This document shows positions 1 to 12,893 of a DNA stretch of 40,993 nt, piece by piece; positions within the stretch are counted from its first letter, which is position 1; every line of letters starts with the position of its first letter. The translations under genes were made by a program, and so were the position numbers. The notes below the pieces were generated by a model, which worked only from the letters and a program-made list of their open reading frames with translations, did not search any database and was not told where the DNA came from. Source of the DNA: Candidatus Woesearchaeota archaeon (GTDB lineage Archaea; Nanobdellota; Nanobdellia; Woesearchaeales; GW2011-AR4); NCBI GenBank assembly GCA_018303185.1, contig JAGVYR010000070.1, positions 1 to 40,993 of the forward strand. The letters run 5' to 3'.

Positions 1-464
1 CCTTCCATCAAAGGGCTGTCTTGGTTAGCTGTGCTGTAAACCTCTAATTTGCCTTTATTGGCAACAAGCCATGCCCATCCGCTTCCAAACCTTGCAGCAG
101 CAGCATTTGAGAATTCTTCCTTGAACTTGTCAAAGCTTCCGAAAACCTGATTTATTGCATCTGCAACTTTCCCCGAAGGCTGTCCGCCGGCATTTGGGAC
201 CATTACCTGCCAGAATAAAGCATGGTTGCTGTGCCCTCCGCCGTGGTTTCTTACAGCCATCCTTATGCTCTCAGGCACGTCATTGATTTTTTCAAGAATT
301 TCATTAACGTCCATTGGCTCGAATTTTGTCCCTTTTACAGCTGCATTCAGCTTATCAATGTAGGCCTGATGATGCTTCGTATGGTGTATCTCCATAGTCC
401 TTGCATCTATGTGCGGCTCAAGCGCATTGTAAGCATAGCTCAATTTTGGCAGTTCAAATGCCAT
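1..464 (-). CDS. sodA: Fe/Mn superoxide dismutase, C-terminus cut by window edge
   Basis: Reverse-strand translation [45 protein letters not shown]...[12 protein letters not shown]...FGSGWAWLV; classic Fe/Mn-SOD signatures. Confidence 0.96.
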
Positions 465-532
465 AATTCCACCTCCAGTTAACTATTGTTAATAGGGAAG
501 CATTAATGATATAAAAAACTTATGATATCCAA

Positions 533-697
533 GGCAGCGTTCAAAATGTAGGTTAGCAGCTAAAGGTGGGCCCATTCTATTTTTCCGGCAAAAGAGGGCA
601 GGGGGTCGCCCCATACGGGGATAACCGATACATCATGCTAAACAGCAATTGGGCGAAAGCTGCTAACCCGAGCGTCAGCGAGATTTTGAACGCTGCC
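533..697 (+). mobile_element. MITE-like structured repetitive element, copy A (TIR GGCAGCGTTCAAAAT / ATTTTGAACGCTGCC; 9-bp direct repeat GATATCCAA at 524-532 and 698-706)
   Basis: Perfect 15-bp TIRs immediately bounded by a perfect 9-bp direct repeat; inner core 551-668 shared with 5065-5182 and 12705-12823. Confidence 0.85.
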
Positions 698-714
698 GAT
701 ATCCAATAAAGAAT

Positions 715-2010
715 TCAGTTTTCTATCCTCATGTAAAATGGCTTTCCGTGAACCGGCTTTCCTTTATCGGTCTCCAGGCTTTCAAGCTCCTGCAGAGTCT
801 GCTGTATAGTGCCGAATTCCAGCGGCTCGTGTGTGATTATATTTGGCAGGCATTTGACTCCGTCAAAGATAACTTCATTGTCCATGCCTCCCCTCTGAAT
901 TGAGCTTTTTACATTCCATTTGTGCCTTACCAGAACACCCAGGGCATTGTACAATGCTCCCGGAAAGTGAGACAGGTAGAGCCTAAGGTATCCTTCAGTT
1001 CTGACTTTTTTATGGTCTGCTATCTTTGTGCCAGGACCGTCAAATATTATCTTCCTTGTTTTTTTCGACCTTATCATATCGGCTATCTTTAATACATCGT
1101 AATAGACTGAAAACGCTGTTGGCCCTTCTCCTGCACCTTTGCCGACATTGAAATACTCATCAAAAGGGGTCCCCTCTATCAGTATTGCATTGAACTCCTC
1201 GTTGACTTTTGCAAGGTGATGGTCGTTCCTTATTAGTGCGGGATTGACTTTCATGCTTATATCGCCTGCACTCGTTTTCTTAGCTGAGGCAAGAAGCTTG
1301 ACTGCATATCCAAGGTCTTTTGCATACCCTATGTCAGTGGGGGTTATTTCGGTGATGCCTTCGCAGTGCACATCTTCAGGCCTTATCCACTTTCTGAAGG
1401 CAAGAGAAGCCAGGATTGAAATCTTCTGGGCAGCGTCTTTTCCCGAAACGTCAAAAGCAGGGTCAGCTTCGGCAAAGCCTTTTTCCTGCGCAATCTTCAG
1501 CGCAGTGCTGTAGTCCATGCCTTCGCTCATCCTTGTCAGGATAAAGTTTGTCGTGCCGTTAAGTATTCCTGTTATGCTTCTTATTTCCCCGAAGCTCAGC
1601 TGCTCGAGAAGGGGGTTGATTATGGGTATTGCGCCCGCAACTGCGCCTTCAAATCCGATATTCACATTATGCCTTTCTGCTGCTGAGAATATTTCCATGC
1701 CATGCTCCGAGATGACAGCTTTATTCGCGGTAACAACATGCTTTCCGTTCTTGATGGAGCTAAGTATATATTCCAAAGCGGGATTGCAGCCTCCGGCCAA
1801 TTCGACAACAATATCTATCCCTTGGTTTTCAATTGCCTCCTTTACATCAGAGGACAGATTAGAAAATGCGACCTTCCTCTTCTTATTGAGATTTTTAACG
1901 ATAATTACCTTCAGGTTGATTCCTCTTGGCCTGTTTTTTTCAAAAAGCTTGACTAACCCGCTCCCAACAGTTCCAAAGCCTATGATTGCAACATTGACGT
2001 CCTTTTCCAT
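715..2010 (-). CDS. hom: Homoserine dehydrogenase
   Basis: N-terminal NAD fold VAIIGFGTVGSGL; GILNGTTNFILTRM; EADPAFDVSGKDAAQKISIL motif. Confidence 0.95.
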   Translation of the reverse strand: MEKDVNVAIIGFGTVGSGLVKLFEKNRPRGINLKVIIVKNLNKKRKVAFSNLSSDVKEAIENQGIDIVVELAGGCNPALEYILSSIKNGKHVVTANKAVISEHGMEIFSAAERHNVNIGFEGAVAGAIPIINPLLEQLSFGEIRSITGILNGTTNFILTRMSEGMDYSTALKIAQEKGFAEADPAFDVSGKDAAQKISILASLAFRKWIRPEDVHCEGITEITPTDIGYAKDLGYAVKLLASAKKTSAGDISMKVNPALIRNDHHLAKVNEEFNAILIEGTPFDEYFNVGKGAGEGPTAFSVYYDVLKIADMIRSKKTRKIIFDGPGTKIADHKKVRTEGYLRLYLSHFPGALYNALGVLVRHKWNVKSSIQRGGMDNEVIFDGVKCLPNIITHEPLEFGTIQQTLQELESLETDKGKPVHGKPFYMRIEN

Positions 2011-5046: not shown

Positions 5047-5206
5047 GCGTGCCTAAAAAATGGGGGTTGGCATCAATCCGTGAGCGTTTTGTCAAGTTTT
5101 CCATTAAATGCGGAAGGGGTCGCTCCATACGGGAGGGAGCCGCACATCACTAAAACAGCAAAGAAGCGAACCGATGTTAACCCACGAAGTGATTTTTTAG
5201 ACACGC
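5047..5206 (+). repeat. Structured repetitive element, copy C (outer imperfect TIR GCGTGCCTAAAAAAT / ATTTTTTAGACACGC)
   Basis: 14/15 inverted repeat outside; inner stem GGTTGGCATC/GATGTTAACC with two G-U pairs; GGGGTCGCTCCATACGGGAG block shared with copies A and D. Confidence 0.75.
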
Positions 5207-12679: not shown

Positions 12680-12704
12680 TTATTTTTGTATTTTTACAGA
12701 TGAA

Positions 12705-12823
12705 GGTTAGCGGCATAAGGTGAGCGCACTTCATTTTTCCAGTAGGCAAGGTCAGGGGGACGCCCCATACGGGGCTTGACCGATACTTCGTGCAAAACAT
12801 TACCTGCGCGAAAGCCGCTAACC
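12705..12823 (+). repeat. Structured repetitive element, copy D (119 nt core, no obvious outer TIR)
   Basis: Terminal stem GGTTAGCGGC/GCCGCTAACC; CAGGGGGACGCCCCATACGGGG and ACCGATACTTCGTGCAAAACA shared with copy A. Confidence 0.75.
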
Positions 12824-12893
12824 GAAATCTCCTTGAGCCAACTTTTCAATAAACTTTTTAAACCACTGCCTATTCAGGACAGCCTGTGGGAGC

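Follow-up and report, generated by a model that had tools for sequence, protein, structure and literature searches.

The element at positions 533-697 of the window (the whole analysed stretch of 40,993 nucleotides from a Candidatus Woesearchaeota archaeon) was confirmed to be real mobile DNA and one copy of a large non-autonomous (MITE-type) family in Woesearchaeota. With a probability of roughly 0.86, the observations are explained by a MITE-type family that is mobilized in trans by an IS5 transposase, is targeted to sites upstream of promoters, carries a conserved fold and exchanges its TIRs. A first-pass annotation of this DNA did not recognise that the family ranges across the order, that TIRs are exchanged among IS5 lineages and that insertion takes place upstream of promoters at a fixed distance.

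The Window Copy and Its Relatives

The MITE-type element is 165 bp long and has perfect 15-bp TIRs, with a perfect 9-bp duplication outside them (Table 1). These repeats had been described in the first-pass annotation, and all four segments were exact on re-reading. No ORF of at least 100 aa is present within the element, in agreement with the earlier statement that a 165-bp interior lacked a meaningful ORF; the length needed correction, however, as 165 bp is the size of the entire element, TIRs included, and the interior between the TIRs measures 135 bp. The G+C content of this interior is 53%.

Table 1. Coordinates of the element, its helices, neighbouring genes and further copies in the window.
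Feature	Position	Strand	Evidence or remark
Fe/Mn superoxide dismutase gene, truncated at window end; targeted promoter	3-464	-	PF00081 1e-31, PF02777 3e-18
TATA box (TTTATA on minus strand) of superoxide dismutase gene	510-515	-	Start 18 bp beyond left TIR; matches family-wide 15-20 bp spacing
Target-site duplication, left copy GATATCCAA	524-532		Exact repeat of 698-706
Left TIR GGCAGCGTTCAAAAT, 5' strand of outer helix P1	533-547	+	Perfect complement of 683-697
Helix P2, 5' strand GGTTAGCAGC	551-560	+	Pairs with 659-668; double compensatory changes in 8/10 pairs, 79 distinct sequences
Helix P3, 5' strand GCCCA, beside GA.GA tandem	570-574	+	Pairs with 650-654; double changes in 9/9 modelled pairs, family-wide
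Apical hairpin P5, CCCC-ATAC-GGGG	609-620	+	RNAalifold and pair counts
Helix P3, 3' strand TGGGC	650-654	+	RNAalifold and pair counts
Helix P2, 3' strand GCTGCTAACC	659-668	+	RNAalifold and pair counts
3' hairpin CGAGC-GTCA-GCGAG, tandem G.A pairs	669-682	+	In G008, tandem G.A replaced by Watson-Crick CTTGC/GCAAG
Right TIR ATTTTGAACGCTGCC, 3' strand of P1	683-697	+	Perfect complement of 533-547
Target-site duplication, right copy GATATCCAA	698-706		Exact repeat of 524-532
Homoserine dehydrogenase gene, other flank of element	715-2010	-	PF00742 8e-59
Decayed third copy in window, TIRs 13/14, duplication unclear	about 5047-5206	+	Covariance model 45 bits; TIR scan
Second interior copy in window, without recognisable TIRs	12704-12828	+	Covariance model 95 bits; TIR scan

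The genome that contains the window (G000; 1.62 Mb in 76 contigs, about 91% complete) was searched by blastn with a 183-bp query, which matched 56 pieces at about 40 places, fragments included. Another copy in this genome is 91% identical to the window copy. Many copies have 9-bp duplications of their own (TCTATTTGG, TGAAAACGC, TGAAAAAAT, GTTTAAATT, GTTTTTCCA, and GTGGGTTAA; further perfect examples are GAAATTCAG and GAAACAATA). Because such a similar copy and so many related places were found, many of them with their own duplications, the presence of the element cannot be attributed to chance. Two copies of the same genome (L033, L038) are chimeric, with two TIRs of different types and no target duplications, as recombination between copies predicts.

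A covariance model of the interior, from which the TIRs were left out (R1), had matches in 114 of 353 genomes and 83 of 220 genera of the order, with at least nine matches in many genomes. When genomes were sampled evenly across the phylum, 60 of 371 contained matches, and all but one of these (G467) belonged to the order. Copy numbers ranged from one to dozens per genome; most genomes of the order had no detected copy. Copies in other genera combine the same interior and 9-bp duplications with different TIRs. An exact scan of named genomes for a conserved 18-mer identified 20 contigs, of which 16 were assigned to Candidatus Woesearchaeota, one to Nanoarchaeota and three to bacteria; the bacterial matches lacked an R1 match and were dismissed as chance. 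Viral contigs showed no exact match to the 18-mer.

Evidence of Mobility

Among 97 copies from about 30 genomes, the flanking duplication was identical in 45 and one base off in 10, so that 55 copies matched at 8/9 positions or more. Cross-paired unrelated flanks reached this level in 0.6% of cases; as element ends were allowed to shift by a few bases in scoring, chance is more fairly put at about 5% at most. The congeneric genome G011 has an empty site for insertion L051 of G004, with a continuous alignment across the site. A second empty site in G011 is readable on one side, its right side having diverged.

These results bore out the earlier reading of a non-autonomous transposed element: further copies with target duplications occur in its own and in related genomes, and the contrary outcome that the first-pass annotation had envisaged, no other copies with duplications, was not found. 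An empty site, which it had proposed to look for in a sister strain, was observed in a sister species for another copy, the genus of the window copy being represented by one genome. As in MITEs, the elements are short, non-coding and bounded by TIRs, with duplications at several insertions, empty sites, and an autonomous element that has the same ends (see below).

A Conserved, Covarying Fold in the Interior

The interior is a conserved, covarying multi-helix fold and not a transposase remnant, as had been surmised from the window copy alone. In the common plan, the TIRs form helix P1, which encloses P2 (GGTTAGCRGC/GCYGCTAACC), P3 beside a tandem-GA motif, P4, and an apical hairpin P5 built around AGGGG..CCCC-ATAC-GGGG; a 3' hairpin (CGAGC..GCGAG) is located between P2 and P1. 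The window copy folded more stably than all 200 of its dinucleotide shuffles on both strands (z -4.9 and -5.3). In 80 aligned matches, pairing-preserving double changes were detected in 29 of 32 pairs. The number of double-change cells was 369, versus 111 in shuffles, and none of 500 shuffles reached 369. After the pairing partner was moved by one column, about 40% of the cells were still paired, compared with 82% in register. An independent RNAalifold analysis of 24 full-length copies showed double changes in 23 of 36 pairs. P3 and P4 were partly misregistered in the automatic alignments, which makes the pair counts there conservative. Covariation in P1 counts for little as support for a fold, because matched TIRs are expected of any transposon.

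The same fold could be a feature of the DNA, such as a cruciform or hairpin that forms in transposition or replication, with compensatory changes generated by template switching from one arm to the other. This possibility, which is compatible with the main explanation, was judged to have somewhat less than an even chance. It would fit P1, which consists of the TIRs and is obliged to match for transposition, and it would fit the lack of a strand preference by folding energy (31 versus 29 of 60). However, the tandem G.A motifs, the conserved loops and the stacking of several helices would be more usual in folded RNA, and wobble mismatches in P1, P2, and P5 favoured the canonical strand (28 G.T versus 7 A.C; as the copies are related, these counts are not independent).

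Several structural variants were observed. At positions 594-620 of the window, runs of GGGG, CCCC, and GGGG permit two mutually exclusive hairpins; the three segments co-vary in the family, and a switch or alternative fold is possible. Some copies have extra hairpin modules within loops. In six copies of the window's genome (L011, L014, L021, L025, L038, L041), a module of 55-60 nt, GATTTGCCTGCGAGAACG...GTTCAGGTGAAGCGAG, occupies the loop of the 3' hairpin, and its occurrence across different TIR types points to a shuffling of modules, or to recombination, among the copies. Seven copies (L027, L028, L030, L034, L035, L037, L041) carry large hairpin cassettes (CCCAAGGTTTTAGGAAAACCTTG..., CGGAAAGCG..CTTTCCG) in the apical P5 loop, with the stem kept. 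An integron attC site was dropped as a candidate identity, since the GTTAGC/GCTAAC order of the element is reversed relative to attC.

Candidate Autonomous Partners

The candidate autonomous partners are IS5-family ISs of 877-909 bp, which have TIR types as in the elements and mostly perfect 9-bp duplications. They were first found by a TIR search of element-rich genomes, on a contig (G201:C39) that opens with GGCTCTGTCCTAAAT and on which the second TIR ends at position 887. The 281-aa transposase encoded by this contig scored above the cut-off for PF01609, and its best NCBIfam match was the IS5 model NF033579 (3.6e-36), with a score of 125 bits relative to a curated cut-off of 140. Ten transposases had invariant residues D100, D170, Y215, R218, E222, and K229, with the signature Y-(2)-R-(3)-E-(6)-K, and relatives were detected in 72 of the 353 genomes of the order. 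A search for relatives in the PDB gave no match at E <0.01. Perfect duplications flank the complete ISs L162 (GGCTCTGTCCTGAATC/GGTTTTATG), L183 (GGCTCAGTAGAAAGTC/ACACCAACA), and L204 (GGCTCTGTAGAAAGTC/CTTATAAGC).

In genome G256, TIR GGCTCTGTCCTAAAT had 22 matches with at most one mismatch, and IS ends of this type were found there with duplications TGGGCAATC, GGAAAGAGC, and ATTCGGTTA. Six contigs of this genome (C18, C29, C64, C19, C23, C59; L141-L146) end within IS copies, about 85-98 bp in, and contig ends can be paired by these three 9-bp duplications, which could aid scaffolding of such MAGs.

No TIR pairs 0.8-2.5 kb apart were found in G004, G095, G087, G065, and G066. The assembly that contains the window includes no complete partner IS; its sole transposase relative is a distant ORF with 27% identity and without such TIRs. 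This absence may be due to the incompleteness of the assembly and to the breaking of assemblies by repeats. The first-pass annotation had placed the autonomous parent outside the window and had called for an IS with matching TIRs and 9-bp duplications. Both points agree with the present data, as partners were absent from the window and matching IS5-family ISs were found in related genomes. The shared ends and duplications suggest mobilization in trans by an IS5-like transposase.

Transposases with PF13737 (IS903-type) were rejected as partners: they occurred in few genomes of the order, their TIRs (GCTGTGTTGCATAATTA) did not match and their flanks lacked the TATA spacing described below. In the genome of the window, PF13737 was not found. 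IS903-like ISs L091, L092, and L099, of the same order, have TIRs such as TGCTGTGTTGCATAATTA and lack this spacing.

Exchange of TIRs

The interior persists while TIRs change. Within one genome, copies with 87% identical interiors had TIRs that were 23-46% identical (L040/L039, L011/L015). Sister families with other P2 sequences use the same TIR types (L066, L067, L069, L071, L075, L043, and, in G157, L158). Their inner stems (GGTTGCCATC/GATGGCAACC, GCTGGTGCC/GGCACCAGC, GGTTTTGGTGCC) differ, and they have the same architecture and TATA-adjacent position. Similar interiors with dissimilar TIRs, together with TIR types common to sister families, indicated that the interior is not bound to a single IS, in contrast to what would hold for a deletion derivative. 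An ordinary MITE derived from an IS5 element by internal deletion would have its TIRs and duplication length in common with that element, as observed here. This origin is nevertheless highly improbable, as one interior was recognised in many genera in which TIRs and IS interiors differ, and as the IS ends beyond the TIR (e.g., GGCTCTGTCCTAAATCTTAAATAATAAATGCCCC in L140) are unlike the interior of the element.

Insertion at a Fixed Distance From the TATA Box

Distances between elements and start codons clustered near 45 bp, which prompted an analysis of TATA spacing. Counted outward from the TIR, TATA-like boxes started at 16, 17, 18, and 19 bp in 38, 23, 37, and 17 cases, respectively, and at other positions in 0-6 cases. 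On one side or both, 73 of the 97 elements had a TATA box starting at 15-20 bp, versus 2-14 in control windows of the same width (binomial 4e-41 relative to the control window with the highest count); the other 24 had no TATA match at the expected place. The spacing was found in 18 of 22 copies in the window's genome and in 47 of the 55 copies with good duplications. On the promoter side, the consensus consisted of the 9-bp duplication, followed by a BRE-like stretch of six A-rich bases and then by TTTATAAA.

Partner ISs had a box at 15-18 bp in 12 of 13 cases, including two more distant IS5 relatives (L191, L194); the exception, L140, has one readable side only. All eight sister-family copies examined had a box at 16-20 bp. 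The spacing in the elements and its recurrence in the partner ISs indicated insertion directly upstream of BRE-TATA.

A similar picture might result from survivorship if insertion were near random and selection purged copies inside promoters and genes, in line with the short intergenic regions of Woesearchaeota and the location of the elements between genes. Purging would, however, leave a broad upstream distribution instead of TATA starts concentrated at 16-19 bp. Moreover, the three IS903-like ISs, from another IS5 subgroup in the same order, had a TATA box at that distance in none of six flanks, a small sample. Survivorship was therefore considered improbable.

The promoter was on the left side of the element in 40 cases, on the right in 28 and on both sides in five, which indicated insertion in either orientation. 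Orientation relative to neighbouring genes was unbiased (17 versus 15). These data also bear on whether the interior is a host-functional RNA, such as a regulatory leader, terminator or ncRNA, spread by transposition and kept for the host. Strong covariation and conserved unpaired motifs would be expected of such an RNA. It would, however, have to be reconciled with the lack of orientation bias, with variable copy numbers and the many genomes of the order without a detected copy, and with insertion upstream of the TATA box, which leaves the element out of the RNA made from the targeted promoter. In Rfam, no family scored above its gathering score and none matched at an E-value <1. A host function was accordingly deemed very improbable. 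In the most likely reading, the fold probably serves the element's own mobility or retention as a single strand, not a host gene.

Proposed Mechanism and Implications

In the proposed mechanism, an IS5-family DDE transposase acting in trans would bind the 15-bp TIRs and insert the element with a 9-bp stagger, as suggested by the matching ends and duplications. The target, defined by the observed spacing, would be the 9 bp that immediately precede an archaeal core promoter (BRE and TATA), in either orientation. The transposase may recognise promoter-bound TBP/TFB or read the BRE-TATA DNA itself. Landing there would spare both coding sequence and core promoter, so that copies, presumably of low cost, could be tolerated and accumulate. 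The cargo would be the interior, a conserved multi-helix fold without transposase remnant that outlasts TIR changes, and TIR exchange may let one interior exploit successive IS5 lineages. A bolder version, in which an order-wide selfish structured RNA or ssDNA travels as a DNA transposon, swaps TIRs among IS5 transposases and is delivered by TBP/TFB to the upstream edge of promoters, so that it would be the archaeal equivalent of Ty3 and TnGBS but with active folded cargo, is possible but rather unlikely.

If the main explanation is true, DDE transposases evolved a safe-haven strategy also on the eukaryote-like TBP/TFB machinery. A sharp, TATA-referenced site in archaea is common to autonomous ISs and gene-free passengers, and its guide is directly testable in vitro. 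A covarying interior that persists longer than the TIRs around it poses the question why a MITE would need a fold. In addition, about 40 repeats in a single small DPANN genome are explained by the family, which may be one cause of broken contigs in assemblies of this kind.

Comparison With Known Systems

The partner ISs resemble the IS903-like group of the IS5 family in PF01609, in their best match to NF033579, although below its curated cut-off, and in the Y-R-E-K signature. Their TIRs starting with GGCT.TGTT and their 9-bp duplications are reminiscent of IS903. They differ in being shorter (877-909 bp), archaeal and targeted to promoter-adjacent sites.

Like MITEs of archaea and bacteria (for a review, see PMC10969869), the elements are short, gene-free, TIR-bounded, intergenic and foldable, with target duplications. 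In contrast to these MITEs, they are not AT-rich, their interior is conserved order-wide and shows compensatory changes, their TIRs are exchanged and their spacing to the TATA box is exact.

Promoter-guided transposition is on record for yeast retroelements as well as for bacteria. Integration of the Ty3 retrotransposon is guided by TFIIIB to the edge of an initiation-factor complex. Ty3 is an unrelated retroelement, to which the woesearchaeal element would be comparable if TBP/TFB, hypothetically, acted as its guide.

The bacterial elements TnGBS/ISLre2 and ISKra4 are known to target the upstream side of promoters at a constant distance, which is 15-17 bp from the -35 box (PMC3942029). In the TnGBS paper, archaeal ISH6 and AT-rich targets were a matter of speculation only (PMC3942029). 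Both TnGBS and the woesearchaeal system consist of DDE elements whose insertion sites lie a constant distance ahead of core promoters, and in both, symmetrical inverted repeats go with insertion in either orientation (PMC3942029). TnGBS, however, uses sigma-A promoters and Mutator-like (IS256-related) transposases, whereas BRE-TATA and IS4/IS5-type transposases are involved here, and the specificity extends to a non-autonomous element whose fold is conserved. The woesearchaeal system thus works like the TnGBS/ISKra4 group without being a member of it. In the open-access literature, where absence is no proof, neither such targeting in archaea nor such a MITE family in DPANN was found to be reported. 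Within the literature searched, promoter-adjacent insertion is known from bacteria, and its archaeal, TATA-referenced form with a folded passenger appears to be new.
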